Below, one piece after another: positions 15,402 through 51,488 of a stretch of 54,033 nt of DNA; position 1 is the stretch's first letter, and each line of letters begins with the position of its first letter. The notes under the pieces are model-generated. The model made no database searches. It was not told the DNA's origin and saw only the letters and a list, made by a program, of their open reading frames with translations. The stretch covers positions 579 through 54,611 of the forward strand of contig PXSQ01000020.1 in NCBI GenBank assembly GCA_003022725.1. The letters run 5' to 3'. This stretch comes from Halobacteriales archaeon SW_7_65_23. Lineage in GTDB: Archaea > Halobacteriota > Halobacteria > Halobacteriales > Haloarculaceae. Position numbers and translations under genes: made by a program.

Positions 15402-16373
15402 ATGACACGAGAAATCGAACACTCCGGCTCGGGAGGGGCCCCCAGCCCCGACTCCCGCGTTTCGCGCCGGGAGGCGCTCGTGGGGATTGCCGGGTTCGGA
15501 TTCGCCGCTTTTGGTCCCGCAGTGCAGCCGACGACGGCGTCGGACGATCACAGCGTCGCCGTCTCGGTTCGACCGGAGGAACGCTCGGTCGCACCCGAGG
15601 CAACCGAAACGTTCGACGTCGTCGTCGAGGGCCCGACCAACGGGCTCTCGACAGTAGTCGTTGAACTGTCCCTGTCGGATGCCGCCGTGGCGACTGTGAC
15701 GGACGTCGAACTGACCAAGGAATCGATGCTCAGCGAGGTCGAGATCGACGACGGCGTCGTGACGGTCGAGGCCGCGTTGGGGACGAACACCTTCGACCCG
15801 GCGGACGAAATTGTCCCGATAACGTTCACTGTCGAGGCACGTTCCTCCGGGAGTACGGAGATCCGGGTCGAGGAGGCACAGTTCGACGACCTGGACGGCG
15901 AGCCGTACAGTGTCCACCAGACGACGCGCGCTACAGTCCGCGTGGACGACGAAGACGAAAACCAGGATGGAGACGAGGAGCAAGGCGCGGACGAAGAACA
16001 GGACGGAGACGAAGATGGATCAGGGGAAGACGGTGGAAACGAGGAGAGCGCAAGCACTGACGAAGAGGGGAACGACGAACCAGCCGAAAACGGGACAGAC
16101 GGCGACGAAACAGACTCAGACGGGGAGGGAAATACTGACGAAGCGAGTTCGGACGAGGAAGGCAGGAGTGCCGAAGGTGACGGGACAGACGACGGGCAGG
16201 ACGAGAGCGCAGCGGTCAGTGATGACGACGACGGCGAGACGACAGACGACGACGGCGAGACGGCGGACGACGACGGGCCGGGATTCGGTCTTGCGACGGG
16301 CGTCGCCAGTTTCGGGGCACTCGGATACGGGCTGTTGCGACGCGTGTCGCCGACAGCGCACGAAGAGCAGTGA
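15402..16373 (+). CDS. Tat-exported surface protein with PGF-CTERM anchor
   Basis: 323 residues from the ATG at 15402; an ATG at 15366 is also in frame. The N-terminus has a twin-arginine signal (SRREALVGIAGFGFAAFGP). Residues ~45-175 form a cohesin-like beta domain (VRPEERSVAPEATETFDVVV, ATVTDVELTKESMLSEVEID). A very acidic low-complexity linker of about 120 residues follows. The C-terminus GPGFGLATGVASFGALGYGL then LRR matches PGF-CTERM signals, which archaeosortase A removes while attaching a lipid. The protein is thus likely a lipid-anchored cell-surface adhesion or binding protein. Its TGA stop is also the target duplication of a family B element. Confidence 0.8.
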   Translation: MTREIEHSGSGGAPSPDSRVSRREALVGIAGFGFAAFGPAVQPTTASDDHSVAVSVRPEERSVAPEATETFDVVVEGPTNGLSTVVVELSLSDAAVATVTDVELTKESMLSEVEIDDGVVTVEAALGTNTFDPADEIVPITFTVEARSSGSTEIRVEEAQFDDLDGEPYSVHQTTRATVRVDDEDENQDGDEEQGADEEQDGDEDGSGEDGGNEESASTDEEGNDEPAENGTDGDETDSDGEGNTDEASSDEEGRSAEGDGTDDGQDESAAVSDDDDGETTDDDGETADDDGPGFGLATGVASFGALGYGLLRRVSPTAHEEQ

Positions 16374-16481
16374 TATTGTCGAACGTAATTTCGTGGAGTC
16401 ACGCGTTACGTTCAGCCGTTCACCCGTGCGAATACAGCCAGGAGAGTGTCACGATGTGACACAGAATTACGTCCGACAGTA
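16374..16481. mobile_element. Family B element, full length, at a stop codon
   Basis: 108 bp with TIRs TATTGTCGAACGTAA (two changes from consensus) and TTACGTCCGACAGTA. TGA flanks both sides (16371-16373 and 16482-16484), and the left TGA is the stop codon of the PGF-CTERM gene. The interior contains the palindrome TGTCACGATGTGACA. About 180 bases follow before the next gene; I see no feature in them. Confidence 0.85.
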
Positions 16482-16662
16482 TGAGGGACCGGTCGAACTC
16501 GGCGTTCGAGTGGGTGAGAGGTCTCTCGGCGACAGCACGATTGGCCGCGAGCCGTGATCTGCAGTGCGAGCGGAGAGCGAGTATACCTCGTGCAACGCTC
16601 CCGATCATTACACGGGAGGAATCGTCACGAGCGGCGCATGCAACGGTAACCTCGGGCAGCGA

Positions 16663-17538
16663 TCAGACGCTGGGAGAACCGATCTCGTCGGTCGACCCTC
16701 CAGTACTGTTTAGCAGGTCCAAATTTGAGAAAAACCCCGCACAGGCTGCGTTGAACAGCGCAGGATTGTCCTGGTTGACCAGATGGCCTGCGTGGGCAAT
16801 CTCTCGCCAGAACCCGTGACTGACGGTGTCAGCGAGTCGCTCACCCTGACGCTTGACCGGTGGTGCTTCGTGATCGCCGTACAGCACCAGTATCGGCGTC
16901 TGAACGTGCGAGAGATCCGACGGCACGAACTGGTAGAGTGCCTGGAATATCTTCCGATACTCGTCCGGTGACACGTCATCGAGCGCGGTCAGTGCCTGTG
17001 ACTTGACCGCCGGGTCCACGGTCAGCCAGGGTCTCCCGATCGTCGACCGGATCGAGCAAAGCAGCGTCCGGAACGTCGCTGTCGGCCCGATGGTCGACAC
17101 CATCCCGACGATGGCCGGCAACGGTGAGATCAACGGCTTCACTCCCGGTGGGAGGCTGATCGGCGGCATCGACTGGAGCGGCCCGCCGATCACTGCTCCT
17201 CGCGCCCCGTTGGGATGGCTGTCGAGATAGGACTGCACGATCATCCCGCCGATGGAGATGCCACAGAGGATCGGTCGCTCGATGTCGAGGTGGGCCAGCA
17301 GCCGTTCCAGGTCGGCGACGAACAGGTCTATCGAGTACCGCCGCGAATCAGTCGGGCCGGTCTGACCGTGACCGCGGAGGTCGAACGTCACCACTCTGTA
17401 TTCGTCGGCAAACCGGTCAACCTGGGGTCGCCAGGACTCGGCGTTCTGCCAGCCGCCGTGGAGACAGACCAGCGGTGGCCCGTCTCCACGCTCCTCGTAC
17501 CAAAGCGTACCGTTCTCTATCGGAACTGTCGGCATCAC
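16663..17538 (-). CDS. Alpha/beta hydrolase
   Basis: 291 residues. The oxyanion-hole motif LVCLHGGWQNAESW is near residue 25 and the nucleophile elbow GISIGG (Ser) near residue 93. The acidic residue lies in LVLYGDHEAPP and the catalytic His in IAHAGHLVNQDNP. These give a complete catalytic triad. It resembles lactonase- or esterase-type hydrolases of the 3-oxoadipate enol-lactonase group; the substrate is unknown. It lies 80 bases downstream of the methyltransferase on the same strand. The start may be the first ATG (17538) or the next codon, also ATG. Confidence 0.8.
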   Translation of the reverse strand: MMPTVPIENGTLWYEERGDGPPLVCLHGGWQNAESWRPQVDRFADEYRVVTFDLRGHGQTGPTDSRRYSIDLFVADLERLLAHLDIERPILCGISIGGMIVQSYLDSHPNGARGAVIGGPLQSMPPISLPPGVKPLISPLPAIVGMVSTIGPTATFRTLLCSIRSTIGRPWLTVDPAVKSQALTALDDVSPDEYRKIFQALYQFVPSDLSHVQTPILVLYGDHEAPPVKRQGERLADTVSHGFWREIAHAGHLVNQDNPALFNAACAGFFSNLDLLNSTGGSTDEIGSPSV

Positions 17539-17618
17539 GGGAACACAGGGATGCCGTACCCTTGTATCGTCTACCTGCTACTGCAACGACACGACGTCGG
17601 TGTCCTCGATTTCGCCAG

Positions 17619-18260
17619 TCAGACTGGTTTTTGCGCTGTCGTTGCGATCACGAGGTCCGGACTCCACGCGGGGCCCGTGATGAGGTGGCGGTCATCTCGC
17701 CATCCCGCACCCTGGAACAGTCGCGTTGCTTCGTCACGATCGTAGCAGAAAAAGAGCGTCGAATTGATCGTCTCCTGGACGTTCAGAACGGGGTTCAACG
17801 GCGAGAACCGTCGTTGATGAAACCCCATCACGAGAATCGATCCGCCCGGCTTCGTGACGCGAAATGCCTCCTGCAGGACATCCTCCGGCGTCGCCCAGTA
17901 CAGAATCGAGCCGACGGACACGACGCAATCGAAGCTCTCATCCGCGTACGGAAGGCGGTGCCCGTCCGCCTGAACGAACCGGGCATCAGCTAACTCGTCC
18001 TTCTCGGCGGCAGTGTGGAGCTGGTGGGCACTCGGATCGAGTCCGTGCACAGCAGCGACTCGCGGCGGCAGGTGGCTGATCGTCTCACCGGTCCCACAGC
18101 CGATATCGAGAACACGGTCACCGGCGTCGAGTTCGAGCCGTTCGATCCCCTCCCGCTGCAACGACGCTGACCAGAACAGCTCGGAGACGACTGTATCGTA
18201 TCCCGGTGCAATGAATGCAAACCATTGCCGCGCAGCATCGCCGTCCTGTAACAGTCCCAT
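17619..18260 (-). CDS. SAM-dependent methyltransferase, class I
   Basis: 213 residues with a Rossmann-type SAM site: motif I VLDIGCGTGETIS, motif II HGLDPS, a QADGHRLPYADESFDCVV segment and a motif near EAFRVTKPGGSILVMGF. The overall pattern is like UbiE/Methyltransf_11 proteins that methylate small molecules. Substrate unknown. It is on the same strand as the alpha/beta hydrolase and could be co-transcribed with it. Confidence 0.8.
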   Translation of the reverse strand: MGLLQDGDAARQWFAFIAPGYDTVVSELFWSASLQREGIERLELDAGDRVLDIGCGTGETISHLPPRVAAVHGLDPSAHQLHTAAEKDELADARFVQADGHRLPYADESFDCVVSVGSILYWATPEDVLQEAFRVTKPGGSILVMGFHQRRFSPLNPVLNVQETINSTLFFCYDRDEATRLFQGAGWRDDRHLITGPAWSPDLVIATTAQKPV

Positions 18261-18372
18261 ACCACGGTCTTCGGACTGTATCCGAATAATGGTTATCCGA
18301 TCAACAGAAACTGGGATAGAGAGAGATCACGACTGGTATGAATGCGACGGATGAGGCTGAAGGGGGCGCTCA

Positions 18373-18399
18373 TAGTGATTAGACTCACAGTAATCACTA
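18373..18399. mobile_element. Family C element, reduced to its ends
   Basis: TAGTGATTAGACTCACAGTAATCACTA: 27 bp with a family-C-like left end (TAGTGATT) and right end (AATCACTA). Left flank TCA, right flank TCG. It is probably a collapsed copy of the 109-bp elements at 48322 and 53594, or a very short derivative. Confidence 0.55.
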
Positions 18400-18468
18400 T
18401 CGGTCCTGGGGAGAGAGCGGAGGTTCCAAGTCCAACAGTGACAGCATCAGCTCACCGGCCCACGTTTC

Positions 18469-19146
18469 CTACCCAGTCCGGAACGCACGGTCGCCGGCGT
18501 CGCCCAGCCCGGGAACGATGTACCCGTCGTCGTCGAGGTGATCGTCGATACTCACTGTCACCAGTTCGGCGTTGGGCGCTACCTCCGAGACGCGCTCTAA
18601 CCCCGGCGGCGCGCTCACGGCCGAGAGCACGACCAGCGTCTCCGGGTCCGGCGACCCCTCCAGCAGCGTCTCCAGCACGGTCGCCATCGTGCTGCCGGTC
18701 GCGAGCATCGGATCCGCGACGATCACCGTATCCTCGGGCCGGATTTTCGGCAGTTTCACGTACTGCACCGAGATGGGGAAGGTCCCATCGTCGTCCATGC
18801 CGGCCTCCTCGTCGCGGCTGGCGGAGATCACGCCCTGGCGGGCGGCGGGGAACGCCTTCAACAGTCCCTCGACGAACGGCGTCGCAGCCCGCAGGACGTT
18901 CACGATCACGACGTCGTCCAGCCCGGTGACGCGCTGGCCGGTCGTCTCGGTCAGTGGCGTCTGCACCGGCACCGACTCGGTCGTCATCCGCTTGTCGATG
19001 ATCTCGTACCCGCAGACCCGCCCGAGGCGGACCAGGCCCTTCCGGAACGCCACCTGCTCGGTGTCGACGCTCCGCAGGTCGGTCAGGATGTGCTGTGCCA
19101 GCGAGTGTGTGACCACAGAAGCGTTCTCGCGGCGCTCGATCGTCAT
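18469..19146 (-). CDS. upp: Uracil phosphoribosyltransferase
   Basis: 225 residues. It converts uracil and PRPP to UMP in pyrimidine salvage. The PRPP-binding motif is [19 protein letters not shown] and the C-terminal uracil-binding loop is [21 protein letters not shown], both classic for Upp. Length is normal. A TATA-like run, ATCTTAAC on the minus strand, lies about 26 bases before the ATG at 19146. Confidence 0.95.
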
Positions 19147-19169
19147 GTGCGAGCGTTCAGCATCCCGGG

Positions 19170-19455
19170 TTAAGATACTGTCGTATACACGCTGGCACCG
19201 CCAGGACCGACCAGGTCGTCGATGATCCGAAGCGAGCCCACCGTGAGGAACAGCGAGAGTCCGGTCGGAACCGCGAGCAACGGCAGCAGCTCCCCGAGTA
19301 GTTCTGCTCTTTCCGAGATCGCCGTGTCGGCGTCCGTTATTGCTAGCGGGGTCTCGATTCGTGGGTAGCTTTGGGCGGTCGACAACCGTCGGGCACTCCG
19401 ACGGTCGTTCACTCCAGCAGGACGCGTCTGGCGGCCGAAGACGACTCCTGTGAGT
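19170..19455 (-). pseudogene. Possible membrane protein remnant
   Basis: On the minus strand the last ~57 codons before a stop read [20 protein letters not shown] then [20 protein letters not shown] and a short tail. This has one membrane-like segment. The upstream part of the frame runs into a family B element and no start is evident. No family is recognised. It could be the decayed end of a gene, or chance. Confidence 0.25.
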
Positions 19456-19461
19456 ATCTCA

Positions 19462-19556
19462 TACTGTCGGACGTAACTCTGTGTCACATCGTGACACTCT
19501 CCTGGCTGTATTCGCACGGGTGAACGGCTGAACGTGACGCGTGACTCCACGAAATA
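19462..19556. mobile_element. Family B element, right end deleted
   Basis: The left TIR TACTGTCGGACGTAA follows a TCA. The interior matches the other copies up to CTCCACGAAAT, and then the final ~12 bp of the right TIR are missing. Foreign sequence with a small hairpin follows. Confidence 0.8.
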
Positions 19557-19624
19557 ACACCGAGCGGATACCCAAGACGCCACACCCTCACTTCCAGGGC
19601 CGACGGTGCATCAGCAAACCCGCA

Positions 19625-19702
19625 CGTTCACAGCCGGGGGGATCACGCAGGCAGGATTCCCCACGGAGGAATCCTCGCGCTGTCGCGCGGGGAGGAGGTC
19701 AA
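19625..19702 (+). repeat. Right-end remnant of an IS200/IS605-type element
   Basis: Two small hairpins (GGATTCC...GGAATCC, then CGCGCTGTCGCGCG) are followed by GGGGAGGAGGTCAA. The same ending, GGGAGGAGGTCAA, follows a TnpB remnant at 28396. In IS605-family elements such hairpins sit at the right end and form the 3' end of the TnpB guide RNA (omega RNA). No TnpB gene adjoins this copy, so it is a solo end or a miniature derivative. Confidence 0.45.
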
Positions 19703-19717
19703 CGCGACCAGCACCGA

Positions 19718-20551
19718 CTATTCGTCCGACTCGATCCCCGAGTCCGGCGCCCAGTCGGGGAAGCCGTCGAGGTCCGTGGCGGGTCGTGACTCCTCGTAGT
19801 ACCGCGCGTAGACGTTCTCGGCCCACGCGATCGCGTCGGGGTCGTCCGTGTCGACGTAGAGGACTGGCGTCCCCGTCTCCTCGTCGTAGGCCCGCAGGTC
19901 GAGGTGGTCGTCGTAGATCGCCATCCCGAACGTGATGCCATCGTGAACGCGGTACTCGCTGGCGGCGTCGCCCTCCGCGACCTCGCGCTGGCGCTCGGGG
20001 AACTGCTCCATGTTCGCCAGCGCGATCTCCTCGGTGATGATGAACTCCCCGCTCATCCCCGTTCCGATCGCGATGTCGAGCATCTTCTCGACGTACAGGG
20101 GCGGTACGAGCTGGTTGCAGTCGACGATCCGGATCGTGTCCGAGGACCGGAACAGATCCATCGTCCTGTCGGCGAAGGGGTAGGGGTCGCCGGGTTCGGG
20201 GATCGTGACCCGCGCATCCCCGAACAGCGCCACGTCGACCGACACACCGGCCTCGTCGAACGCCGCGACCAGCGGCTGAAGGCGGTAGGCCGTCCGCACC
20301 GTCGCGTCGAAGCTCTCGACCTGCTCGTGGACGATCTCGCCCAGCCGCGTCAGCTCGTACCCGCTGTCGGTCCGCCGGAGCAGCCCGTGGTCGTCGAACG
20401 TTCTGACGATCCGGTGGCACGTCGTCTTCGAGAGGTCGAGTTCCGCCTGGAGCTCCTTGCGGTGATGGGGCTCTTTGGCCAGCGCGTCGAGCACCGGCTT
20501 GCGCTCCACCGCAGTCGTCAGGACGGCCGGGTCGAACTCCGTGGCGGACAT
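19718..20551 (-). CDS. HTH transcriptional regulator, haloarchaeal winged-helix type
   Basis: 277 residues from the ATG at 20551. The N-terminal 75 residues are a winged helix-turn-helix (ALAKEPHHRKELQAELDLS then KTTCHRIVRTFDDHGLL). A C-terminal domain of about 180 residues (TVRTAYRLQPLVAAFDEAGV, DTIRIVDCNQLVPPLYVEKM, GEFIITEEIALANMEQFPER) is like the ligand- or effector-type domain of many haloarchaeal regulators of this kind. Target genes are unknown; it stands alone, divergent from a family A remnant and the reductase gene. Confidence 0.8.
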   Translation of the reverse strand: MSATEFDPAVLTTAVERKPVLDALAKEPHHRKELQAELDLSKTTCHRIVRTFDDHGLLRRTDSGYELTRLGEIVHEQVESFDATVRTAYRLQPLVAAFDEAGVSVDVALFGDARVTIPEPGDPYPFADRTMDLFRSSDTIRIVDCNQLVPPLYVEKMLDIAIGTGMSGEFIITEEIALANMEQFPERQREVAEGDAASEYRVHDGITFGMAIYDDHLDLRAYDEETGTPVLYVDTDDPDAIAWAENVYARYYEESRPATDLDGFPDWAPDSGIESDE

Positions 20552-20603
20552 ACGGCCAACCACCACGTTCCGCAACAAAGGGGTTTTGATCGGATTTCCA
20601 ACA

Positions 20604-20643
20604 ATTCTCAATTCGAGTTTTCACGTACGTACAGCCACTAGTA
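20604..20643. mobile_element. Family A element, right half only
   Basis: It begins ATTCTCAATTCGAGTTTTCA, continues through CGTACGTACAGCCAC, and ends TAGTA followed by TCA. It lies between the HTH gene and the reductase gene, inside their shared promoter region. Confidence 0.75.
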
Positions 20644-20697
20644 TCAGTCGCGAACGCGGCCGGCGGGTATTTTAGCGGGCGCCCCGAACCGGGGGAT

Positions 20698-21750: not shown

Positions 21751-21774
21751 CCCGGCGTTACAGGAGCGCTCTCG

Positions 21775-21905: not shown

Positions 21906-22017
21906 TCGTGGCCCTCCTCTCCCGGACGGTGCTACGCGTCAGACTGCTCCGCTCGGCTCGACGCGACCCCCCGCGAGCAGCACCAGGAGTGCTACCATAT
22001 CGCACGGGGGACGTATG

Positions 22018-26715: not shown

Positions 26716-26844
26716 GCTGTCGTCTCCGCTCGGCGGCTCGCCATCGTACGTCGTGACGAGTCCGACCTGCCGGAGCGCCCGGTACAGGTGTCGGGCCTGC
26801 TCGAACGCGAGGTCCAGCTCCCCGGCGGTCAGCTCCTGGCTCAT
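26716..26844 (-). pseudogene. Gene fragment between two elements
   Basis: On the minus strand an ATG at 26844 opens a frame reading SQELTAGELDLAFEQARHLY then RALRQVGLVTTYDGEPPSGD, which runs into the deleted end of the family B element and stops inside it. The ATG is made by the family A element boundary (GTA joined to TGA). Removing that element joins upstream bases to give GTGAGCCAG, so the original start may have been GTG. The C-terminus is lost. No family is recognised. Confidence 0.4.
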
Positions 26845-26951
26845 ACTGGTGGCTGTAATTCTTTTACTCACCAGTCTCTGCTATCTGCGGAGACAGACCC
26901 GTTCTGCCTGGATTCTCAATTCGAGTTTTCACGTACGTACAGCCACCAGTA
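26844..26951. mobile_element. Family A element, full length
   Basis: 108 bp. Left TIR TACTGGTGGCTGTAA, right end TACAGCCACCAGTA, with TCA on both sides (26841-26843, 26952-26954). The interior includes ACTCACCAGTCTCTGC, GGAGACAGACCCG, GATTCTCAATTCGAG and TTTTCACGTACG. It is the best reference copy for the family. Confidence 0.85.
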
Positions 26952-27001
26952 TCACTCCCCGCGGGGTGAGATTTTTGTGATTCTCTCCGGGATATCGGAC
27001 T

Positions 27002-33316: not shown

Positions 33317-33467
33317 ATGGCACATCTCGATCCGCTGCCCGAGGACGCGACGCCTGAACTGGACGAGGAGTTCAAGACGTTTGAGGAGATCCTGGGCTTG
33401 TCCCGAACAGCCTGCTGACGATGCAGCGCAAGCCCGCCATCGTCGAGGGGTTTGACTACCTCACTCA
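33317..33467 (+). pseudogene. Carboxymuconolactone decarboxylase/AhpD-like remnant
   Basis: The frame from the ATG at 33317 reads AHLDPLPEDATPELDEEF then KTFEEILGL. After a one-base shift near 33395 it continues VPNSLLTMQRKPAIVEGFDY, a typical N-terminus of AhpD/carboxymuconolactone-decarboxylase-type peroxidase proteins. The catalytic Cys pair that should follow is gone. The fragment stops at an A/B composite element. Since rnhB lies on the other side, the gene had been truncated before that insertion. Confidence 0.6.
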
Positions 33468-33590
33468 TACTGGTGGCTGTAATACTGTCGGACGTAACTC
33501 TGTGTCACATCGTGACACTCTCCTGGCTGTATTCGCACGGTTGAACGGCTGAACGTGACGCATGACTCCACGAAATTACAGCCACCAGTA
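33468..33590. mobile_element. Chimeric family A/B element at the rnhB stop codon
   Basis: 123 bp. The outer ends are family A (TACTGGTGGCTGTAA left, TACAGCCACCAGTA right). Inside the left end a family B left TIR starts at 33483 and the B interior runs to CCACGAAAT, where it joins the A right end instead of the B right TIR. TCA flanks both sides (33465-33467, 33591-33593), and the right one is the rnhB stop on the minus strand. It looks like a B-in-A nesting or TIR exchange that later moved as one unit. Confidence 0.8.
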
Positions 33591-34256
33591 TCAGAACTCT
33601 TCCAGGGTAGCCTGATCCAGCGACGCCAGCACGTCCTGACTCGTTTGCCAGGACTGCCGGGCACAGTCAGGGAGTTGCTCCTCTGACTCGACGTAGCGCC
33701 GCAGGAACTGCCGTGTCGTGGGGTCGCTCGGATACCCGCTACCGATATCGCCGTATCCCCGTCCGTCGTAGGACGCAGCGAGGTCGGCGACGTGAGCGTC
33801 CCGGCAGACTTTTGTGATGATACTTGCTGCGCTCACGATCGGGTGTTCGTCGTCGGCGCCGTGCTTCGCCCGCAGGTCGATGTCGGGGTTCACGCGCTCG
33901 CCGACGCGGCGCTCGAACCTGACGGCGTTCGTGTCGGCCGCGTCGAGATAACACGGAAGGCCATCGCGTGGAAGGCCTTCACCTGCGGCCTCCGAGAGCG
34001 TCTCTGCATGGGCTGCGACGGTTAACCCGTTCATATCCGTCTCGGGGTCGTCGATGCGCTCGACTGGAATCTCGGTGACTGCAACGGCGTCCGCCGTTTC
34101 GCGGATCTGTTCGGCGAGCGATTCTCGATGGTCGGCTGACAGCCGCTTCGAGTCCGCGATACCCGCCGGCAGGTCGTCAACGGAGGCACGGACGCAAGCG
34201 GCGAACATCGACCCCAGCACCGGCCCCTTCCCCGCCTCGTCGACCCCGAGTTGCAT
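33591..34256 (-). CDS. rnhB: Ribonuclease HII
   Basis: 221 residues. It starts QLGVDEAGKGPVLGSMFAA with the DEAGKG motif. Later acidic residues are in CYLDAADTNAVRF and AKHGADDEHPIVSAASIITK. It cuts RNA in RNA/DNA hybrids at single ribonucleotides and primers. Its length is standard for archaea. Its stop codon is the duplicated TCA/TGA of the composite element downstream. Confidence 0.92.
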   Translation of the reverse strand: MQLGVDEAGKGPVLGSMFAACVRASVDDLPAGIADSKRLSADHRESLAEQIRETADAVAVTEIPVERIDDPETDMNGLTVAAHAETLSEAAGEGLPRDGLPCYLDAADTNAVRFERRVGERVNPDIDLRAKHGADDEHPIVSAASIITKVCRDAHVADLAASYDGRGYGDIGSGYPSDPTTRQFLRRYVESEEQLPDCARQSWQTSQDVLASLDQATLEEF

Positions 34257-34322
34257 ACCGGACCGATTCGCCTCGGCGGGTATAAAAGACCGGTTTCCAC
34301 CGTCCCTCCGGCCAGTGGCTCA

Positions 34323-34355
34323 TACTGGTGGTTGTAATTCTTTTACTCACCAGTA
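34323..34355. mobile_element. Family A short form at the pus10 stop codon
   Basis: 33 bp: TACTGGTGGTTGTAA, TTCTTTT, ACTCACCAGTA. TCA flanks both sides (34320-34322, 34356-34358); the right TCA is the TGA stop of pus10. It has nearly the same sequence as 9452-9484, so the short form is itself a mobile variant. Confidence 0.75.
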
Positions 34356-35654
34356 TCAGGTGTCGTCGCCGGCTTCATCCCGGAAGTACTCGGGGTCCTC
34401 GAATGGTTCGTCCTCGCCGGTGACCTCGATCACGTCCAGCGCCGTCACCGTCGCCTCCACCCCGAGCAGGCCCGCAAGGCTCGGCTCCGTGCGGCCGTCG
34501 TCGCTGCTGACCAGTTCCTTGACGTAGAGACCGCCCTCCCCGTGGATCTCCAGGGTGGCGTGGCGCTCGTCCTCGAGATCACCCGACGCCTCGTAGACCG
34601 TCCGAACGCGGGTTTTCGCTGCCCTTCGGTGAGAGACGCGCTGAGGCGTCTCCTGCTCAACCGTTGCGCCGTCGAGTTCCCCCAGCGCCTCCTTAAGCGC
34701 TGCTTCGTCGACCGGGGCCGCGAACTCCACGTCCATCCGGTAGGTCTTGCTCGCATCGAGTTCCTTGACGCGCTCAACCATCTCGTGGGTCGCCAAGCGG
34801 AGGCCCTCGACCTCGACGCGGCCCTCAGCGGATTCGTTGATCCGCTCCTGGACGGCGTCGGTGTCGATAGCACGCTTGCGCGGGTCCTCGATCTCGATCA
34901 CGAACGGGCGACCGGTCCCGAGCATGACTGCATCGACGTCCTCCCGCCCCGCTCCGTGGAACGTCCCACCCTCGCCGTTTATTGCCTCCGCGACGATCGG
35001 AACCGTCTCCTCCTCGACGCTGGTGTCGTACCGGTAGCCCGTTCCCTCACAGCCGTCGCAGTGCGAGCCCTGGTCGATCCCAGTCCCGTTGCACTCGCGG
35101 CAGGGCCACTCAGTCTGGGGAATGTCCCGTTTCAGTTTCCGGTAGCGGCCGTAGACGAACGCGGAGTTGACTTGCAGCTCCACCTCGTCGGTCGCCAGAT
35201 CACACAGCACCAGTACGTCCGGGCGCCCGAAGTCAACTGTCGTGGCCGTTTGCTGGCCGAACCGCTTGCCCACCTCGCGGTTGCACTCGCTTTTCAGCAG
35301 TTCGCCCGCCTCGGGGTCGAGACCCGCGTCCTCGCGGAGCAGGCGGTCGTTCTCCTCGAGCAGCGGCGGCACCTTCGTCCCGACCTGGTAGGTGTCGAAC
35401 TCGTAGCCGTGGACCGCCGCCGCGGCCTGATCGGCCCACCAGTCGAACCGCTCGCACTCGTCCTCGCAAACCCAGCACGGATCGTTACGCGGCTCGAAGT
35501 CGGTGTCGTCCTCCAGGGCGACCGCGACCCGCAGACTCCCGCCGCGCTCGTCGTTCGAGAGCCCGAAGCTCCTGTCGGCGACCAGCCGGCCGAGGCAGTT
35601 GTCACAGACGGGCCCCGTCCCGAGCGCCCGGCGGGCGATCGAAAGCACTGTCAT
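34356..35654 (-). CDS. pus10: tRNA pseudouridine synthase Pus10
   Basis: 432 residues from the ATG at 35654. Archaeal Pus10 makes pseudouridine 54 and 55 in tRNA. The N-terminal THUMP-like and zinc part has CDNCLGRL and CWVCEDECERF, then CRECNGTGID and CDGCEGTG. The catalytic region reads FHGAGREDVDAVMLGTGRPF, in which an Asp in GREDVDA is the expected catalytic residue. The C-terminus (EIHGEGGLYVKELVSSDDGR then TEPSLAGLL) is family-typical. A longer frame upstream is a shadow of the GT87 gene. Its stop codon coincides with a family A short form. Confidence 0.92.
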   Translation of the reverse strand: MTVLSIARRALGTGPVCDNCLGRLVADRSFGLSNDERGGSLRVAVALEDDTDFEPRNDPCWVCEDECERFDWWADQAAAAVHGYEFDTYQVGTKVPPLLEENDRLLREDAGLDPEAGELLKSECNREVGKRFGQQTATTVDFGRPDVLVLCDLATDEVELQVNSAFVYGRYRKLKRDIPQTEWPCRECNGTGIDQGSHCDGCEGTGYRYDTSVEEETVPIVAEAINGEGGTFHGAGREDVDAVMLGTGRPFVIEIEDPRKRAIDTDAVQERINESAEGRVEVEGLRLATHEMVERVKELDASKTYRMDVEFAAPVDEAALKEALGELDGATVEQETPQRVSHRRAAKTRVRTVYEASGDLEDERHATLEIHGEGGLYVKELVSSDDGRTEPSLAGLLGVEATVTALDVIEVTGEDEPFEDPEYFRDEAGDDT

Positions 35655-35765
35655 GACAGGAGGATTGCGCCCGCAGGGTAATTCGCTTTCGGAGCGTCGC
35701 CACCGTCTCTGTGACCCGCTTCCGGGTCCGTGAGAGTTTTTACCCGCTCTGCTGTATGAGCGACA

Positions 35766-37082
35766 GTGCGTCCGCGCCTCGACGACGGATCGCTCGCCGA
35801 GTCCACCGGGCGGCCGCTGGTCGCGCGCCGCTACCTGGGCGCCTGGCTCGTATTGCTTCTCCCAGCAGTGATTGGCATCGTCAAGTACTACACGTACCCA
35901 GACCTCGGTCTGTTCACCTGGCGCGTCGGCGAGTCGACGACTGGTGCGTACATGGGGATCAACTTCCACGTGTACCACGTCGCTGCCGAGCGGGCGCTCG
36001 CAGGCCAGCCGTTCTACAGCGTCTCTCCGGACCCGGCAGCACCGTCGTTCGTGTATCTCTACCCGCCGGTCACCGTGGCTGGCTTTCTCCCGTTCGCCGT
36101 CATGGACTGGACGACCGGATACCTGGTCTTCACGGCAATCAGTCTCATCGCTGGCGTGGGTGCGTCGGTGGCTACGGTCCGGTACGTCGAGTCGCTCGGG
36201 ACCCCGCTCGGCTGGGTGGACGTGGCGCTGCTCTGTGCGCTGTTCGTCCTCTCGATCCACGTGACTGCGACTGTCTACTTCGGCAATATCAACCTGCTGC
36301 TCGGGTTCGCCTTCGCCGTCGGGTTGCTCGGACTCCGGCGGAATCGGGAGGTGATCGCCGGGCTCGCGTTCGCCATCGCCGCGCTGTTGAAACTGTTTCC
36401 GGCCCTGATCGGACTCTGGCTGGTGTGCGACCGCCGGTGGCGTGCTGCCGGCGCCGCGATCGGAGCCGGCAGTGCAGGGCTCCTCGCCGGAGTTCTGCTG
36501 TTCGGCGTCGACACGACTGTCCACTTCTTCACGTCGGTCCTCCCCGGTCGGTCCGAGTCGGCAGCGTTTGTTGGTGGCCTGTCCGCAGGGGGATCCTTCT
36601 ACGTCACCGTGCAACGCCCGCTCTCACACCTCATCTGGTCGCTCTGGCCGGACGCACCCTACGCAGTACTGCCTGCGAGCGCGGCGCTGCTCTGTGGCGC
36701 CGTTCTCGCGGTGTTCTACCGGGAGGTCAGTTCGCAGCGCGATCGGCTGTTCGCAGTGTTCGCAACCGTCGTGGTCGCGCTCGTGGCGGTCCCGTCGTTC
36801 AGGCTGTACGCGCCGATTCTGTTTCTCCCGCTGGTGGCACTGCTGTACACCTGGACAGGGGGTCCAGGCAGACGGCTGTTTCTCCTCGGTGCCCTCCTGT
36901 TCTCTGTCGTCGCCAGACCCCGACACGTACTCCGGGCAGCCGAGTACCTCGGCCCCCTCGAGGGCATCGTTGTGAGCATCGGGCGAGTGGTGACCCTGCA
37001 ACTGCTCGCCTACGGACTCATGCTCGGCGCCTGTGCCTGGCACCGTCGCAGCTCCAACGGTCGCCCGTCAGACGCGGGCTGA
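35766..37082 (+). CDS. GT87-type polyprenyl-phosphate-dependent glycosyltransferase
   Basis: 438 residues from a GTG at 35766. An integral membrane protein with about ten hydrophobic helices. The first loop (STTGAYMGINFHVYHVAAER) and YLYPPVTVAGFLPFA are characteristic of the DUF2029/GT87 group related to PimE mannosyltransferases, which use polyprenyl-phosphate sugars on the outer side of the membrane. A role in surface protein or lipid glycosylation is likely; the substrate is unknown. It is divergent from pus10 with 111 bases between them. Confidence 0.8.
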   Translation: MRPRLDDGSLAESTGRPLVARRYLGAWLVLLLPAVIGIVKYYTYPDLGLFTWRVGESTTGAYMGINFHVYHVAAERALAGQPFYSVSPDPAAPSFVYLYPPVTVAGFLPFAVMDWTTGYLVFTAISLIAGVGASVATVRYVESLGTPLGWVDVALLCALFVLSIHVTATVYFGNINLLLGFAFAVGLLGLRRNREVIAGLAFAIAALLKLFPALIGLWLVCDRRWRAAGAAIGAGSAGLLAGVLLFGVDTTVHFFTSVLPGRSESAAFVGGLSAGGSFYVTVQRPLSHLIWSLWPDAPYAVLPASAALLCGAVLAVFYREVSSQRDRLFAVFATVVVALVAVPSFRLYAPILFLPLVALLYTWTGGPGRRLFLLGALLFSVVARPRHVLRAAEYLGPLEGIVVSIGRVVTLQLLAYGLMLGACAWHRRSSNGRPSDAG

Positions 37083-37083
37083 T

Positions 37084-41562: not shown

Positions 41563-41645
41563 TGGCGGGTATCCGACAGCGATCCCTATCAGGCCGTCGG
41601 TTGGCGTCGGGCGCACGGCCCGGTTGGCGTCGACCACCAGCCTCA

Positions 41646-41754
41646 TACGGTCGTGCGTGATTATTTTCAGCACCGGGTCCCAATATCGGCGGTTTCGCGG
41701 TCTGAAACGCCCAATGCGTGATTCTATAGCGGTAAAGAGTCACGCACGACCGTA
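41646..41754. mobile_element. Family E element, full length, at a stop codon
   Basis: 109 bp with perfect 15-bp TIRs TACGGTCGTGCGTGA / TCACGCACGACCGTA. TCA on both sides (41643-41645, 41755-41757); the right TCA is the stop codon of the membrane protein gene on the minus strand. The interior has TTATTTTCAGCACC, ATCGGCGGTTTCGC and AGCGGTAAAGAG. It aligns well with the interior of the family C element at 53594 read backwards, although the TIRs differ. Confidence 0.85.
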
Positions 41755-42621
41755 TCAGATGATCGGTTCGGCGTTCTCCCGGATGATGAGGTACGCGGGG
41801 ACGGCTATGACGTTCAGCGCCGGGACCATCGCGAAAAATGCCCAGAACAGCGGTCCGCCGTCCCAGTCCGTTGTCGTCCGGAGGTTCCAGGCATCCATGT
41901 ACACGGAGGCTGGCAGTATCACGAACGTCGACACGAGCCATAGTAGGAGAAACGGCAGCGTCGAGACGAACGACCCGAGGCCGAAGATGCCCGCGAGCGC
42001 GACTAACAGGCTCGGAACCAGGCCCGCGATGATGCCATAGAAGCCGCGTGGATCGCCGCGCGGTTCCTCGTCGGGCAGCACCGGCACGTAGTAGCCGTCC
42101 TCGATCGTCAGGAGGATCGTCTCGCCGTGGATATCCGCAAAGCGGTCCATCGGGATGTCGCGCAACGAGAGCAGCCGCGCCAGCCGCGGATCGGTCCCCT
42201 GATCGGGCCACTCGAAGTAGACGACGACGGTCTCGTTCTCCGCCTCGAACATCGACAGCTGGAGCGCCAGTACCTCCTCGGTGTCGATCTCGGCAGGGTA
42301 GTCGTCAGGGATCTCGCTCGTCGGCACGCGTTCGACAGCGATCGCCTCGCCGCGGCCGCGCATCCCCTCGGCAAGCCCCAGCAGCTCCTGTTCGACCTCG
42401 ACGAACGACTCCGCCGCGTGGTCGAGTTCTTCCTTTTCCGACTCCGCCTGAGCGTCGTCAGTGGTCGGTTCGGCTGCTCCCTCGCCGGCCGCCTCCCCAA
42501 CTGGTTCGGTTCGCTCTGACTCAGCCGCCTCGGCTGGCTCCTCGATCGTCGTCGTCGTTTCGGAGCCACCACTACTGGTCGACTCGGTCCCGTCACCGTC
42601 CGTGTCGTCGTTGCCCGCCAC
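41755..42621 (-). CDS. Haloarchaeal membrane protein with acidic N-terminus
   Basis: 288 residues. The first ~65 are acidic Glu/Thr/Ser-rich and unstructured. A soluble alpha/beta region follows (VEVEQELLGLAEGMRGRGEA, DIHGETILLTIEDGYYVPV). Four hydrophobic segments lie at the C-terminus (GFYGIIAGLVPSLLVALAGI, LPFLLLWLVSTFVILPASVY, PLFWAFFAMVPALNVIAVPA). Function unknown. Its stop codon TGA serves as target duplication of a family E element. Confidence 0.7.
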   Translation of the reverse strand: MAGNDDTDGDGTESTSSGGSETTTTIEEPAEAAESERTEPVGEAAGEGAAEPTTDDAQAESEKEELDHAAESFVEVEQELLGLAEGMRGRGEAIAVERVPTSEIPDDYPAEIDTEEVLALQLSMFEAENETVVVYFEWPDQGTDPRLARLLSLRDIPMDRFADIHGETILLTIEDGYYVPVLPDEEPRGDPRGFYGIIAGLVPSLLVALAGIFGLGSFVSTLPFLLLWLVSTFVILPASVYMDAWNLRTTTDWDGGPLFWAFFAMVPALNVIAVPAYLIIRENAEPII

Positions 42622-45240: not shown

Positions 45241-45346
45241 AACTCACCTACGTTTCAAAGGTGCATAACTGCTGTGGACTCCCCCGGTCCCGCGGCTTCC
45301 CTCTGTGACTGCTCCGGTCCCAGTCACCCGACCAGTCGCCGACCGG

Positions 45347-46219: not shown

Positions 46220-46285
46220 TCCGTAGTGATTGACGCCGTCGAGTAAAGTGAGTTACTGTCATTCCTCGGCGGTGGCAGCGAGTCG

Positions 46286-46876: not shown

Positions 46877-46994
46877 CGTGGCACTCCATTAGCACCAGGG
46901 GACCGGATACGTTTCGATCCGTGGGCCGCGCTGGCGCCCCGCCGGCCGCGCCGAGTTGGCAAGGCCTAAACCGTCCACCGCCGGAGGAAGAGGT

Positions 46995-48062
46995 ATGCGA
47001 ATCGCCGACCGGTACGCTGTCGAGGGCGGGCGCGAGCGGATGACGGTCGTGCCCGAGACCGTCGACGACCTCTGGCACCTCTCGCACGTGATCGAGCCGG
47101 GCGACCGGGTCGCGGGGGACACGACCCGCCGGATCCAGCGCAACGACGAGCAGCTCCGGGATACCGGCGGCGAGCGCGAGCACATCTGGGCCGAAATCGC
47201 CGTCGAGGACGTCGAGTTCGCCCGCTTCGCCAACCGCCTGCGGGTCGGCGGCGTGATCGAAGACTGCTCCCGGGAGGACCAGCTGGGCCACCACCACACG
47301 CTCAACGTCGAGGAGAACGCCGAAATCGAGATCGAGAAACACTTCAAACCGGACCAGCGCGAGCGCCTTGAGGAGGCTGTCGAAGCGACCGACACGCCCG
47401 ACGTCGCGGTCGCGACCGTCGAGGAGGGGCAGGCCTACGTCCATTCGGTCGCCCAGTACGGCACCGAGGAGCGGGCCTCGATCACCGCCCCCACAGGGAA
47501 AGGCGAGTACGCCCGACCTCGGGCTGAGCTGTTCGAGGAACTCACAGCAGTGCTCGGACGGCTCGACGCAGACGCGATCATCCTCGCCGGGCCGGGGTTC
47601 ACCAAGCGCGATGCGCTCGACTACATCGAGGACAACGCACCCGAACTCGCCGAACGCATCACGACCGTCGACACGAGCAGCGTCGGCGACCGGGGCGTCC
47701 ACGAGGTACTCAAGCGCGGCGCCGTCGAAGACATACAGCAGCAGACCCGTATCGCCGCCGAGTCCGAACTGATCGACGAACTCATGGAGCGAATCGCGGA
47801 GGGTGCGGAGGTGGCGTACGGCCCCGATCAGGTCGCCAAGGCAGCCGACTACGGCGCGATCGAATACCTGCTCGTGCTCGACGAACGCCTCCGGGTCGAG
47901 CGCTCCGGCGACGGCGACTGGGACGTCGACGTCGACGACGTTGTCGAGACTACCGAGCAGAAAGGCGGCGAAGTCACCGTCTTCTCCAGCGAGTTCGACC
48001 CCGGTCAGCAACTGGCGAACCTCGGCGGCATCGCCGCCCTCCTGCGGTACCGCCTGGACTGA
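46995..48062 (+). CDS. pelA: Pelota, mRNA surveillance factor
   Basis: 355 residues from the ATG at 46995. It has the three eRF1-like domains of Pelota: an Sm-like N-domain ([20 protein letters not shown]), a central domain with [23 protein letters not shown] and [20 protein letters not shown], and a C-domain ending [20 protein letters not shown]. With aABCE1 and aEF1alpha it rescues stalled ribosomes. No GGQ motif is present, as expected. Its TGA stop (48060-48062) is the target duplication of a family B element. Confidence 0.93.
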
Positions 48063-48169
48063 TACTGTCGGACGTAACTCTGTGTCACATCGTGACCTCC
48101 CCTGGCTGTATTCGCACGGTTGAACGGCTGAACGTGACGCGTGACTCCATGAAATTACGTCCGACAGTA
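48063..48169. mobile_element. Family B element, full length, at the pelA stop codon
   Basis: 107 bp, perfect 15-bp TIRs TACTGTCGGACGTAA / TTACGTCCGACAGTA. TGA on both sides (48060-48062 and 48170-48172); the left one is the pelA stop. It is the reference copy of family B. Confidence 0.88.
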
Positions 48170-48230
48170 TGAAGACCAAACAGTTCCCAGCACCCAAACC
48201 GTTAATTCCGGCACTGCGGTACGTCAACAC

Positions 48231-48837
48231 ATGACAGTACGGTCGGCAACGGCCGACGACGTCGAGGCGATCAGAACGATCGCACGGGACTCCTGGGAAG
48301 TCGATTACCCGGAGATACTGATAGTGATTGTTGTGATTATTTTTGGAGTCGCATCGCATTCTCGGGAGTTTCACGGGCTGACACCGGCGTCTGATGGGTC
48401 GACAGCGGTAAAGACTCACAACAATCACTATGAGCCGGGAGACGGTCGACGAGGCGGTCGAGGACTGGTACGGAAAAGAGCGGGTCACCGATGCGATTGA
48501 GGACCCGCTGGCGTTCCTGCTCGTCGCCGAACCGGCCGGCAACACGGTCGGTTTCCTCCACGGAGTGCTTGACGGGGAGACCGGCGTGATCCTCCGACTC
48601 TATGTCCATCCAGATCATCGGGGGCAGGGAGTGGGGACAGACCTGTTCGTGGCGATCCGGAGGGAGTTCCTCGACCACGATGTCGACCGGATCAGGGCGA
48701 TGGTCCTCGCAGCGAACGAGCCCGGAAACAGCGTCTATCGACACCTCGGGATGGAGCAGGTCGACAGCGGCGAGACGATCATCGGCGGGGACTCGTTCAC
48801 CGAACACACGTACGAACTCCCGATCGAAACGTCCTGA
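48231..48837 (+). pseudogene. GNAT acetyltransferase split by a family C element
   Basis: The N-terminus from the ATG at 48231 reads TVRSATADDVEAIRTIARDS WEVDYPEIL. The 109-bp element with its 3-bp duplication (112 bp in all) then shifts the frame. The rest resumes as SRETVDEAVEDWYGKERVTD, with the acetyl-CoA motif VHPDHRGQGVGTDLFVA and ANEPGNSVYRHLGM, to a stop at 48837. Removing the element and one TGA copy restores ATACTGAGCCGG, i.e. Ile-Leu-Ser-Arg. The second half has its own ATG, made by the element boundary, and could still be translated, but would lack the first beta strand and helix. Confidence 0.85.
48322..48430. mobile_element. Family C element, full length, inside a gene
   Basis: 109 bp with perfect 15-bp TIRs TAGTGATTGTTGTGA / TCACAACAATCACTA, flanked by TGA on both sides (48319-48321, 48431-48433). 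The interior has TTATTTTTGGAGTCGC and AGCGGTAAAGAC, related to family E. The interrupted reading frame proves the 3-bp duplication. Confidence 0.9.
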
Positions 48838-48880
48838 TCGCGGTGCATCCATACGCAGTCCCCGTCTCTGGCTCTGAAAC

Positions 48881-48890
48881 TAAATAGGAA
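48881..48890 (+). promoter_or_regulatory. TATA-like box of the ABC operon
   Basis: TAAATAGGAA starts about 42 bases before the ATG at 48923; it is the only A/T-rich box in the gap. The distance implies a short leader of roughly 10-15 bases. Confidence 0.45.
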
Positions 48891-48922
48891 CATACAAACC
48901 CCGATCGCTAGTAGCGTCGCCC

Positions 48923-49852
48923 ATGTCAATGATCGAGACACAGGGGTTGACGAAGCGGTACGGGTCAGTTACCGCCGTCGAGAACCTTTCGTTGCGGGTC
49001 GACGAGGGGGAGATCTTCGGCTTTCTGGGGCCAAACGGGGCGGGGAAGTCGACGACGATTAACATGCTGCTCGACTTCGCCAAACCGACCTCGGGGAGTG
49101 CCCGGGTGTTCGGGATGGACTGCCAGGAGAACGGCAAGCAGATCCGGCGGCGGATCGGCGTCCTCCCGGAGGGGTACGACGTTTATGAGCGACTGACCGG
49201 CCGCCAGCACCTGGAGTTCGTCCTCGAGTCGAAAGACGCCAACGAGGACGTCAACGCCCTCCTGAACCGCGTCGGCATCGCCGGCGACGCCGATCGGAAG
49301 GCCGGCGACTACTCGAAGGGGATGAAACAGCGCCTCGTACTGGCGATGGCGCTCGTTGGAGATCCCGACCTGCTGATCCTCGACGAACCCACGACGGGGC
49401 TAGACCCCAACGGCGCCCGGGAGGTCCGCGAGATCATCCAAGAGGAGAACAATCGCGGCACCACTATCTTCTTCTCCAGTCACATCCTGGAGCAGGTCGA
49501 GGCCGTCTGTGATCGCGTGGGGATCCTGCGGGACGGGCAACTGGTTGCCGACGACTCGATCGAGGGCCTGCGCGCCAACGTCGGCGGCGGCGAGACGCTG
49601 GTCGTCGAGGGGCAGGGCTTCACCGACGAGGTCGTCCGGAACGTAGAGGCGATGGACGGAGTCGCAGGCGTACAGGTCCGTGCCGGCGGGTCGGAGCTGG
49701 CGATCAACTGCGAGGAGGGACTCAACAAGTCCGAGGTGCTTGGGCTGATCGAGGACGCCGGCGCGTCGGTCGCCGACTTCTCGACCGAGGAGGCGTCGCT
49801 AGAGGAGCTGTTCGCCTCCTACACGACCGACTACGGGGGTGCGGAGGCATGA
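48923..49852 (+). CDS. ABC transporter ATP-binding protein
   Basis: 309 residues (start at 48923, or the next Met two codons on). Walker A GFLGPNGAGKSTTINML, Q-loop region VLPEGYDVYERL, ABC signature YSKGMKQRLVLAMAL (YSKGM variant), Walker B DLLILDEPTTGLDPNG and SSHILEQVEAV (H-loop). The C-terminal ~90 residues form the extension common in exporters of the NosF/CcmA/NatA type. It pairs with the next gene via an ATGA overlap. Confidence 0.88.
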   Translation: MSMIETQGLTKRYGSVTAVENLSLRVDEGEIFGFLGPNGAGKSTTINMLLDFAKPTSGSARVFGMDCQENGKQIRRRIGVLPEGYDVYERLTGRQHLEFVLESKDANEDVNALLNRVGIAGDADRKAGDYSKGMKQRLVLAMALVGDPDLLILDEPTTGLDPNGAREVREIIQEENNRGTTIFFSSHILEQVEAVCDRVGILRDGQLVADDSIEGLRANVGGGETLVVEGQGFTDEVVRNVEAMDGVAGVQVRAGGSELAINCEEGLNKSEVLGLIEDAGASVADFSTEEASLEELFASYTTDYGGAEA

Positions 49853-50679
49853 GCTGGCAGGCGATCGCCAAGAAGGATCTCCAGGACAGCATCCGCTCGC
49901 GGACGCTGTGGGCGACGATCGGGATCTTCCTGGCGCTGATCCTGCTTTTGTCGTGGCTGTTCACCGACGGATCGGGGGAGGGCACGTTCATCGCGGCTGC
50001 GGGGTTCACGTTCCTCATCGGTGTCCTGTTTTTCATCCCGATGGCCGGTCTACTGCTCAGCGTGAAGTCGATCGTCCGCGAGCGCAACACCGGGACGATC
50101 AACCTGCTGCTCTCGCTGCCGCACACCCGCGGCGAGATGATCGTCGGCAAGTTCGTCGGGCGCTCGGTCGTCATGGTCGTCACCGTCCTGGCCGGCTTTC
50201 TGCCCGCGCTGCTGTACATCTTCGTGCAGGTCGACGAGGCCGGATTCACGCAGCTGCTGACGTTCCTGTTCGCACTGAGCGTGTTCGGCGTCATGTGGGT
50301 CGGCATCGGGATCGGCCTCTCCGCGCTCGTCAACAGCGAAACGCAGGCGACCATCACCGGTGTCGTCATGTTCGCCGTGCTGATCCTGTGGCCGCTGATC
50401 TTCGAACAGGCCGGTATCGAGCTCCCGTCGTTCGCCCAGCGGTTCTGGCTGTTCGTCATCTTCGCCGACCTCTTTTTCCTCCCCGGGAGGATCGCTGACG
50501 GCGATTTCACCTTCCCCTCCGTCGTGGAGTTCGACGAAGTGCTCCTTGAGGAACTGAACGACGTCGCAATCTCCGTCGGGCCGCACCTGCAGATGTGGTT
50601 CGTGGTCGTCCTGGTTGCATTCTGGATCATCCTTCCTATCGGGATCGGCTACTACCGGTTCAGCACGACCGACCTCTGA
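49849..50679 (+). CDS. ABC transporter permease
   Basis: 276 residues with six hydrophobic helices, such as TLWATIGIFLALILLLSWLF, FTFLIGVLFFIPMAGLLLSV and MWFVVVLVAFWIILPIGIGY. The sequence AIAKKDLQDSIRSR and SIVRERNTGTINLLLSLPHT RGEMIVGKF is characteristic of NosY/ABC-2 type permeases. Its ATG overlaps the ATPase stop (ATGA). Together they form a heteromeric exporter or membrane-repair type system; the substrate is unknown. Confidence 0.85.
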   Translation: MSWQAIAKKDLQDSIRSRTLWATIGIFLALILLLSWLFTDGSGEGTFIAAAGFTFLIGVLFFIPMAGLLLSVKSIVRERNTGTINLLLSLPHTRGEMIVGKFVGRSVVMVVTVLAGFLPALLYIFVQVDEAGFTQLLTFLFALSVFGVMWVGIGIGLSALVNSETQATITGVVMFAVLILWPLIFEQAGIELPSFAQRFWLFVIFADLFFLPGRIADGDFTFPSVVEFDEVLLEELNDVAISVGPHLQMWFVVVLVAFWIILPIGIGYYRFSTTDL

Positions 50680-50740
50680 GCGAAAGCGGGTCGGAGCGGA
50701 CTGCACCATGTCGATCGTCACATCGCTGGACAACTGCTAA

Positions 50741-50849
50741 GACTGTCGGACGTAACTCTGTGTCACATCGTGACACTCTCCTGGCTGTATTCGCACGGGT
50801 GAACGGCTGAACGTGACGCGTGACTCCACGAAATTACGTCCGACAGTAT
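50741..50849. mobile_element. Family B element, full length
   Basis: 109 bp. The right TIR TTACGTCCGACAGTA is intact and the left has one change (GACTGTCGGACGTAA). TAA flanks both sides (50738-50740, 50850-50852), so here the duplicated triplet is not TCA/TGA. It lies between the permease and the small VOC gene, in their 196-base gap. Confidence 0.8.
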
Positions 50850-50875
50850 AAGACTGTCGCCCCCGAGGTACCAGT

Positions 50876-51274
50876 ATGGACGTCGTCGACCTCGATCACG
50901 TCGCAATCAGAGTGTCGGACCTCGACCGGGCGCTGTCGTTCTACTACGACCTGCTGGGCATGGAGATCCGCGACCGGGAGCGCTACGAGGCGGAGGAAGT
51001 GCCGTACGTAGCGGTCGTCGCTGGCGGGCGGCACGTCCACCTCGTCCCAACCGACGGGGAGATCGACGTCGGCGGCGAGCACATCTGTTTTCTCCTCCGG
51101 TCCTCTGATGTCGGCTCCCGCAAGGAACTTGAGGGCCTGCTCGACCGGCTCCGCGAGGAGGGCGTCGAGGTCGAGGAGGGGGAGCCGTACAAACGCTACG
51201 GCGCCTACGGCCGCGCCTGGGCCGCCTACGTCCGGGACCCCGACGGCCGGCGCGTCGAACTCAAAATCCACTGA
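50876..51274 (+). CDS. Small VOC/glyoxalase-fold protein
   Basis: 132 residues, one glyoxalase-type module pair: DLDHVAIRVSDLDRALSFYY DLLGMEIRDR, HVHLVPTDGE, HICFLLRSSD and YVRDPDGRRVELKIH. Metal-binding His/Glu positions (H in LDHVA, H in GEHICF, E in RVELK) are present. Function could be lactoylglutathione lyase-like or methylmalonyl-CoA epimerase-like; neither fits clearly. Its TGA stop (51272-51274) is the duplicated triplet of a family F element. Confidence 0.78.
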   Translation: MDVVDLDHVAIRVSDLDRALSFYYDLLGMEIRDRERYEAEEVPYVAVVAGGRHVHLVPTDGEIDVGGEHICFLLRSSDVGSRKELEGLLDRLREEGVEVEEGEPYKRYGAYGRAWAAYVRDPDGRRVELKIH

Positions 51275-51470
51275 TACTGCCGGACGTGACTATGTTACTC
51301 CGAGTGATGCTCATACTGGTGGCTGTGATTCTTTTCCTCACCAGTCGCTGCTCTCTGCGGAGACAGACCCGTTCCGCCTGGATTCTCAATTCGAGTGTTC
51401 ACGTACGTACAGCCACCAGTATCAGATGCTGAGCGCTATCCGGGTGGTAACGGAATCACGTCCGGCAGTA
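51275..51470. mobile_element. Family F element with a family A element nested in it
   Basis: Outer TIRs TACTGCCGGACGTGA / TCACGTCCGGCAGTA with TGA on both sides (51272-51274, 51471-51473); the left TGA is the VOC stop codon. A full family A copy sits inside at 51314-51421. Without the A copy and one TCA, the F element is about 85 bp, with a TGCT-rich centre. It is the only F copy in the window. Confidence 0.8.
51314..51421. mobile_element. Family A element, full length, nested
   Basis: 108 bp, left TIR TACTGGTGGCTGTGA (one change), right end TACAGCCACCAGTA, TCA on both sides (51311-51313, 51422-51424). Its interior matches 26844 with a few substitutions. Confidence 0.85.
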
Positions 51471-51488
51471 TGAGCACGCGCTCTCCAG

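Follow-up and report, generated by a model that had tools for sequence, protein, structure and literature searches.

Why do short mobile elements in a relative of Halovenus lie so often with one copy of their target duplication exactly on the stop codon of a gene? The question is raised by a stretch of 54,033 bp (hereafter the window), part of the 2.63-Mb draft genome of an organism rich in MITEs. In the window, ten elements are flanked by two copies of one TNA triplet, and for six of these one copy lies on a stop. The elements, together with one further stop codon that adjoins an element, are:

16371-16484: B-type MITE; TGA duplicates at 16371-16373 and 16482-16484, the left one being the stop of a gene that the original prediction labelled PGF-CTERM
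33465-33593: A-ended element with B sequence inside; TCA duplicates at 33465-33467 and 33591-33593, the latter being the stop of rnhB (minus strand)
34320-34358: 33-bp short form of A; TCA duplicates, that at 34356-34358 being the stop of pus10 (minus strand)
41643-41757: E-type MITE; TCA duplicates, that at 41755-41757 being the stop of a gene (minus strand) labelled membrane protein in the original prediction
48060-48172: B-type MITE; TGA duplicates, that at 48060-48062 being the stop of pelA
51272-51473: F-type MITE; TGA duplicates, that at 51272-51274 being the stop of the VOC gene
51311-51424: A-type element nested in the preceding F-type one; TCA duplicates of its own
48319-48433: D-type MITE; TGA duplicates; off any stop (comparison case, within a gene according to the gene caller)
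26841-26954: A-type MITE; TCA duplicates; off any stop (comparison case, within a weakly supported gene call)
53591-53705: D-type MITE; TCA duplicates; off any stop (comparison case, within a weakly supported gene call)
9485-9487, minus strand: stop of a phosphoesterase gene, adjoining a short A form whose other flank is unmatched

The original prediction, made from the letters alone, named the six coincidences of stop and duplicate, and the ends of the open reading frames agree with it to the base in 6/6 (15366-16373, 46956-48062 and 50876-51274 on the plus strand; 33591-34256, 34356-36614 and 41755-42621 on the minus strand). The end of the phosphoesterase frame (9485-9901, minus strand), put forward as a seventh case with one matching flank, is likewise confirmed. 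Pfam matches were obtained for RNase HII (rnhB), Pus10, an eRF1-like protein (whose name pelota, pelA, is that of the original prediction) and a glyoxalase/VOC protein, each reaching within 3-21 residues of the protein end; the genes ending at 16371 and 41755 gave no Pfam match. The element at 16371-16484 was missed by the element filter and was read directly from the sequence. At 10061-11163 on the minus strand a further gene, presumably GTPase-like, was split into pieces by the gene caller, perhaps through a frameshift or an assembly error.

The elements are MITEs by structure: short, transposase-free, bounded by terminal inverted repeats and present in many copies. As detected they measure 33-308 bp, and 229 with duplicates were called over all sets (176 in the first sets and 53 in later ones); 111 of the 145 measured are 80, 108 or 109 bp long, and 100/145 are 108 or 109 bp. 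In the window's genome (G000) the family ends begin TACTGGTGG, TACTGTCGG, TAGTGATTG and TACGGTCGTG, with close variants. Counts of these patterns over the whole genome gave 230 B-type ends when up to 2 mismatches were allowed (3 with the reversed pattern as control) and 314 A-type ends when up to 1 was allowed (6 with the control). No partner was present for 190 of the 470 ends found, so that many copies are broken. The 33-bp elements, four of which occur in the G000 stretches (window 34320-34358, C17:41771, C27:72977 and C34:23071), with one short form in the related genome G006, consist almost entirely of two ends, and each element has a TNA duplicate of its own; they may be very small mobile units or else products of the use of internal ends.

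A search of 824 kb of the window's genome for 3-bp direct repeats around inverted repeats returned TCA 38 times, TGA 32, TAA 7 and TTA 2, and any other triplet at most 7 times. The triplet was left unconditioned in the search of the G000 stretches, and all 78 candidates that belong to families have TNA. Across four genomes no family element had a non-TNA triplet, again with none demanded; TNA was demanded in the element search for G002, G014 and the later sets. Since TCA is TGA on the other strand, these represent one target type, mostly TSA. The search for shared bases beyond the triplet, which the original prediction had proposed, found C before it and G after it: C at -1 (or G at +1) is present at 66% of 43 intergenic insertions compared with 23% of the background, and G+C-rich flanks are mildly favoured. 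The sites are not centred on a palindrome; flank complementarity is in excess only at +-1, and a palindromic target like that of the SMR-A elements of Haloquadratum was thus rejected. Predicted folding of the sites is slightly above background (p 0.035 at stops, p 0.0035 at intergenic sites), which we put down to G+C.

Insertions were counted in stretches of six genomes after each detected element and one copy of its triplet had been excised; genes were called on the empty sites and every TNA was listed. The nine sets come from G000, G002 (which carries a Halovenus salina plasmid, same genus), G006, G007, G014 and G027 (another genus), with later-fetched sets for G002, G006 and G007; all stretches were chosen for carrying copies. 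On an annotated 50-kb stretch of the Halovenus salina plasmid our gene caller recovered 32/38 annotated stops, and 10/42 of its genes were unannotated, the annotation table itself being incomplete. Elements longer than about 330 bp or with unequal first bases are missed (that at 16371 is one such), and the 20 stretches of the later G002 set yielded only 9 elements that passed. Sites left out were 3 nested or tandem ones in G000 and 2 in G007 whose triplet was unmapped; those unmapped or near a stretch end in G027 (1), G014 (2) and the later G007 set (2); and 3 insertions shared between genomes, 1 in MITE DNA and 1 shared in a later set. Weaker flank matches in the G006/G007/G027 count were retained. 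For weighted expectations, the influence of flanks, triplet type and G+C was learned over all genomes, and only insertions farther than 14 bp from every stop were used for this.

It is clear that insertions on stop codons are far in excess of the simulation called for by the original prediction, in which elements land on random non-coding triplets. Stops make up 528/6916 of the non-coding target triplets of G000, yet of its 72 non-coding insertions they hold 29, of which 5 belong to the window. The expected number is 5.5 if insertions are uniform over non-coding TNA, 6.1 if TGA/TCA only are used and 11.3 if sites are weighted; 29 was reached in 0/20,000 draws from each of these three null models. 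Pooled over the nine sets with shared sites removed, 85/191 non-coding insertions lie exactly on a stop codon, where about 17 are expected from uniform insertion and about 39 after weighting by flanks, triplet type and G+C (sums over the sets). Before shared sites were removed, stops and intergenic triplets were hit respectively at 11/169 and 19/1650 in G006, 2/65 and 4/628 in G007, 8/157 and 10/1151 in G027, 9/155 and 4/2325 in G002, and 2/32 and 5/405 in G014; in the later stretches the figures are 14/108 and 13/885 (G006), 6/76 and 9/591 (G007), and 6/124 and 2/1247 (G002). Tested one set at a time with weights, the excess reaches significance for G000 and for the two sets each of G002 and G006; it falls short of significance for G014, for each of the G007 sets and for G027, where the stop effect in a separate fit was 1.1. 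Families A, B, D and E all have insertions on stops. The target motif alone was rejected as an explanation, since the Mantel-Haenszel odds ratio is still 5.7 when stratified by genome and motif and 4.3 by motif and G+C. Sampled stops with both C before and G after the triplet carry an element in 37/138 cases; since the stretches were selected by the presence of copies, the fraction should not be taken as a rate for whole genomes. Coding insertions number 22 over all sets, two of them representing a duplicated plasmid copy, against 41,699 coding triplets.

The stops predate the insertions wherever a relative was readable. For pelA, in 16 of the 17 other genomes of the genus the aligned codon is a stop and no element is present there (10 TGA, 4 TAG and 2 TAA), the 17th having given no pelA match, and for rnhB the same holds in the two readable relatives. 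Most relatives could not be aligned to the pus10 stop; in G006 the in-frame TGA is found two codons later and is immediately followed by a different type of element end, TACTGACTGTTGTGAG. In the same relative an E-type end begins around 25 bp past the pelA stop. The pelA and pus10 ends therefore seem to have been hit independently in G006.

The excess at gene ends is real and recurs from genome to genome, but what it singles out is the whole of the gene end and not the stop codon in particular. Among sites with at least one key flanking base, the stop is occupied in 83/842 cases, positions 1-14 bp downstream in 15/243 and positions 15-59 bp downstream in 11/880; the first two classes do not differ significantly (p 0.10), whereas the second and third do (p 5.5e-5). 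With all sites pooled the counts are 85/1411, 16/580 and 16/2135, and the logit model gives folds of 4.4 (3.1-6.3), 3.7 (2.1-6.5) and 1.2 (0.7-2.0), respectively. The stop codon thus does not stand out clearly from the 14 bp that follow it, where insertion is about equally frequent, and the background rate holds from 15 bp on. The limit of about 15 bp was set after the first data had been inspected, and the 0-14 bp reading was formed on the earlier data; the later-fetched stretches agree, though their numbers are small (sites with a key base: stop 25/181, 1-14 bp 4/57, 15-29 bp 2/68, 30-59 bp 0/121). Convergent gene pairs, which have no promoters between them, repeat the profile on their own (first four genomes: stop 21/238, 1-14 bp 4/58, 15-59 bp 3/166, gap interior 2/333), and the excess is found in convergent and tandem pairs alike. 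On the other side of the stop, the last 14 nt of genes hold 2/262, so the zone is one-sided; either purging in gene ends must be strong or the preference is asymmetric.

The preference for the exact TGA stop triplet that the original prediction had allowed for finds no support. With flanks and G+C in the model, the effect of the stop codon inside the 0-14 bp zone is 1.38-fold (95% CI 0.78-2.44), and the zone behind TAG stops, where TAG itself is no possible target, is hit about as often (2/31) as that behind TGA (6/116) or TAA (3/43), although these numbers are small. A transposase or partner protein that recognises the TGA stop would place insertions exactly on stops, as 85 of the 191 are, but it is very improbable given that the neighbouring downstream sites are about as hot, TAG stops included. 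Rather, the dominance of TGA follows from its being the commonest stop, from TGA/TCA being the favoured TNA triplets and from the stop being the commonest target triplet within the zone (1411/1991 sites). The terminator context suggested at the same time fared no better: in three genomes there is no T-rich peak downstream of stops, and no site-centred palindrome extends past the flanking base. In the same three genomes, no step in G+C explains the limit at about 15 bp.

The main alternative to a preference at insertion is that elements strike C-TNA-G evenly and that selection does the rest, insertions being lost from genes, promoters and 3' control regions so that only the first bases past the stop are truly free. 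Selection is visible. Coding insertions are rare (7/79 usable sites in G000), operon-like tandem gaps are depleted (0/207 for overlapping gaps and 1/72 for tandem gaps of 1-20 bp), so that selection acts nearby, and flanks, triplet type and G+C by themselves account for a rise in the expected number among the 191 from about 17 to about 39. Furthermore, the two diverged families are more often at stops, which counts against a preference at insertion: D, of the large families the most diverged, has 9/15 there and the small family E 3/4 (mean identity 0.89 for both), compared with 10/45 for A (0.95) and 6/19 for B (0.97), that is 12/19 for D and E against 16/64 for A and B, and three other families are between or low (2/4, 3/10 and 2/6 at identities of 0.95, 0.94 and 0.92). 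This is what a slow filter could give. Within families, however, insertions in the end zone and elsewhere between genes do not differ in age (p 0.50), distance from the family majority being unrelated to place. MITE DNA, supposedly free to receive insertions, also shows a low rate: 7/698 of its sites with one key base and 4/52 with both are hit, compared with 46/704 and 37/138 of stops. The median higher-flank G+C of MITE DNA is 0.61, and stops with values of 0.57-0.64 hold 12/90, against 20/1212 for far sites; avoidance by the elements of their own kind may weaken this control. Divergent gaps, which bear promoters, are not depleted (28/1373), and the interior of convergent gaps is low, as given above. 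Loss of harmful intergenic insertions alone therefore explains the profile poorly, and as a complete account we regard it as possible but rather doubtful; with selection visible but the controls low, a preference at insertion is put somewhat ahead of it.

Two further accounts have less in their favour. Elements might be retained at gene ends because they are useful there, for example as 3' ends of mRNA, as terminators or as insulators between genes. Stops are indeed hit most often where the gap measures 21-60 bp (12/100 for convergent and 9/110 for tandem pairs), and a different element end abuts the pus10 stop in G006, but usefulness offers no obvious reason for the limit at about 15 bp and the elements show no orientation bias (25 in the same direction and 25 opposite), which makes this explanation improbable. 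The same lack of orientation bias led us to reject transcription direction as a determinant. A bias towards strong genes was also rejected, the coding score per codon being equal for hit and other genes (0.384 and 0.381, p 0.91). Alternatively, the pattern could be an artefact of decay, in which intact copies survive best beside an essential gene into which deletions cannot run. Many copies are indeed broken, as the partnerless ends attest, but single ends should then be enriched at stops and are not (22/171 compared with 47/280), so that this idea is left with next to no credibility.

The reading that we prefer, at about even chances of being right, combines purging of coding insertions and a C-TNA-G target with a preference, roughly fourfold and arising at insertion, for the 3' boundaries of genes. 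Several MITE families would be moved by a transposase; the elements duplicate TNA, with C-TNA-G favoured and G+C-rich flanks mildly so, and insertions within genes are rare, as would be expected if they are purged. The roughly fourfold further excess of non-coding insertions 0-14 bp from gene 3' ends, counted from the stop codon, would then be made when the element lands and not by later loss of other insertions. What is sensed may be a putative state of the DNA at gene ends, such as transcription complexes that are open or paused, or stretches that DNA-binding proteins leave free. More tentatively, a prokaryotic DNA transposase may have a general preference for gene 3' boundaries built in, sensing the state of the DNA over about the last 15 bp of gene ends and so finding safe sites throughout the genome without reading particular genes. 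A bias that originates at insertion would mean that a physical mark at gene ends is legible to a transposase, and new insertions would reveal where it lies; one that originates in selection would make the profile a measure of the constraint on each base around archaeal genes, down to the boundary at about 15 bp.

An autonomous partner was sought among 21 end pairs lying 400-3500 bp apart; six were translated and none of these was recognised by eye as a transposase. Matching ends were also absent at 33 PF01609 loci, so no IS5-type transposase with such ends is present there. On the Halovenus salina plasmid a D-type MITE appears to lie in a PF01609 transposase gene (L155 3234-3346 and L156 2953-3065, the stretch occurring twice on the plasmid); the transposase beside these two copies appears to be a gene interrupted by the MITE. 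The IS1031 group of the IS5 family makes a 3-bp TNA duplication (ISfinder) and has this in common with the present elements, but no transposase with matching ends was found in the loci examined here. Harmless insertion just behind a gene is also a property of Tn7, which differs in using one fixed site read by a target protein, whereas the present elements show a general bias over many genes. No title or abstract opening returned by a literature search reported a peak at stop codons or gene ends, which is no proof that such a peak is unpublished.

Prokaryotic MITEs in general are described as short, non-coding, multicopy elements with inverted repeats and a target duplication, mostly intergenic (PMC10969869), and those structural features are common to the elements studied here. 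The same account describes a preference for intergenic regions or 3' UTRs, as distinct from a peak measured in the 15 bp nearest to gene ends, and its main text does not use the words 'stop codon'. The SMR-A elements of Haloquadratum walsbyi resemble the present ones in being around 110 bp long and transposase-free with prominent inverted repeats (PMC3119063). They are described there as making no target duplication and as inserting in palindromes of IS605-type elements and PATEs, unlike the present elements, which duplicate TNA and whose sites have no palindrome past the flanking C/G. In placement there is a likeness to QMITE2 of Coxiella, found mainly in 3' untranslated and intergenic regions (PMC5896051); by that description it is set apart from the present elements by variable duplications of 7-11 nt and by a REP palindrome.
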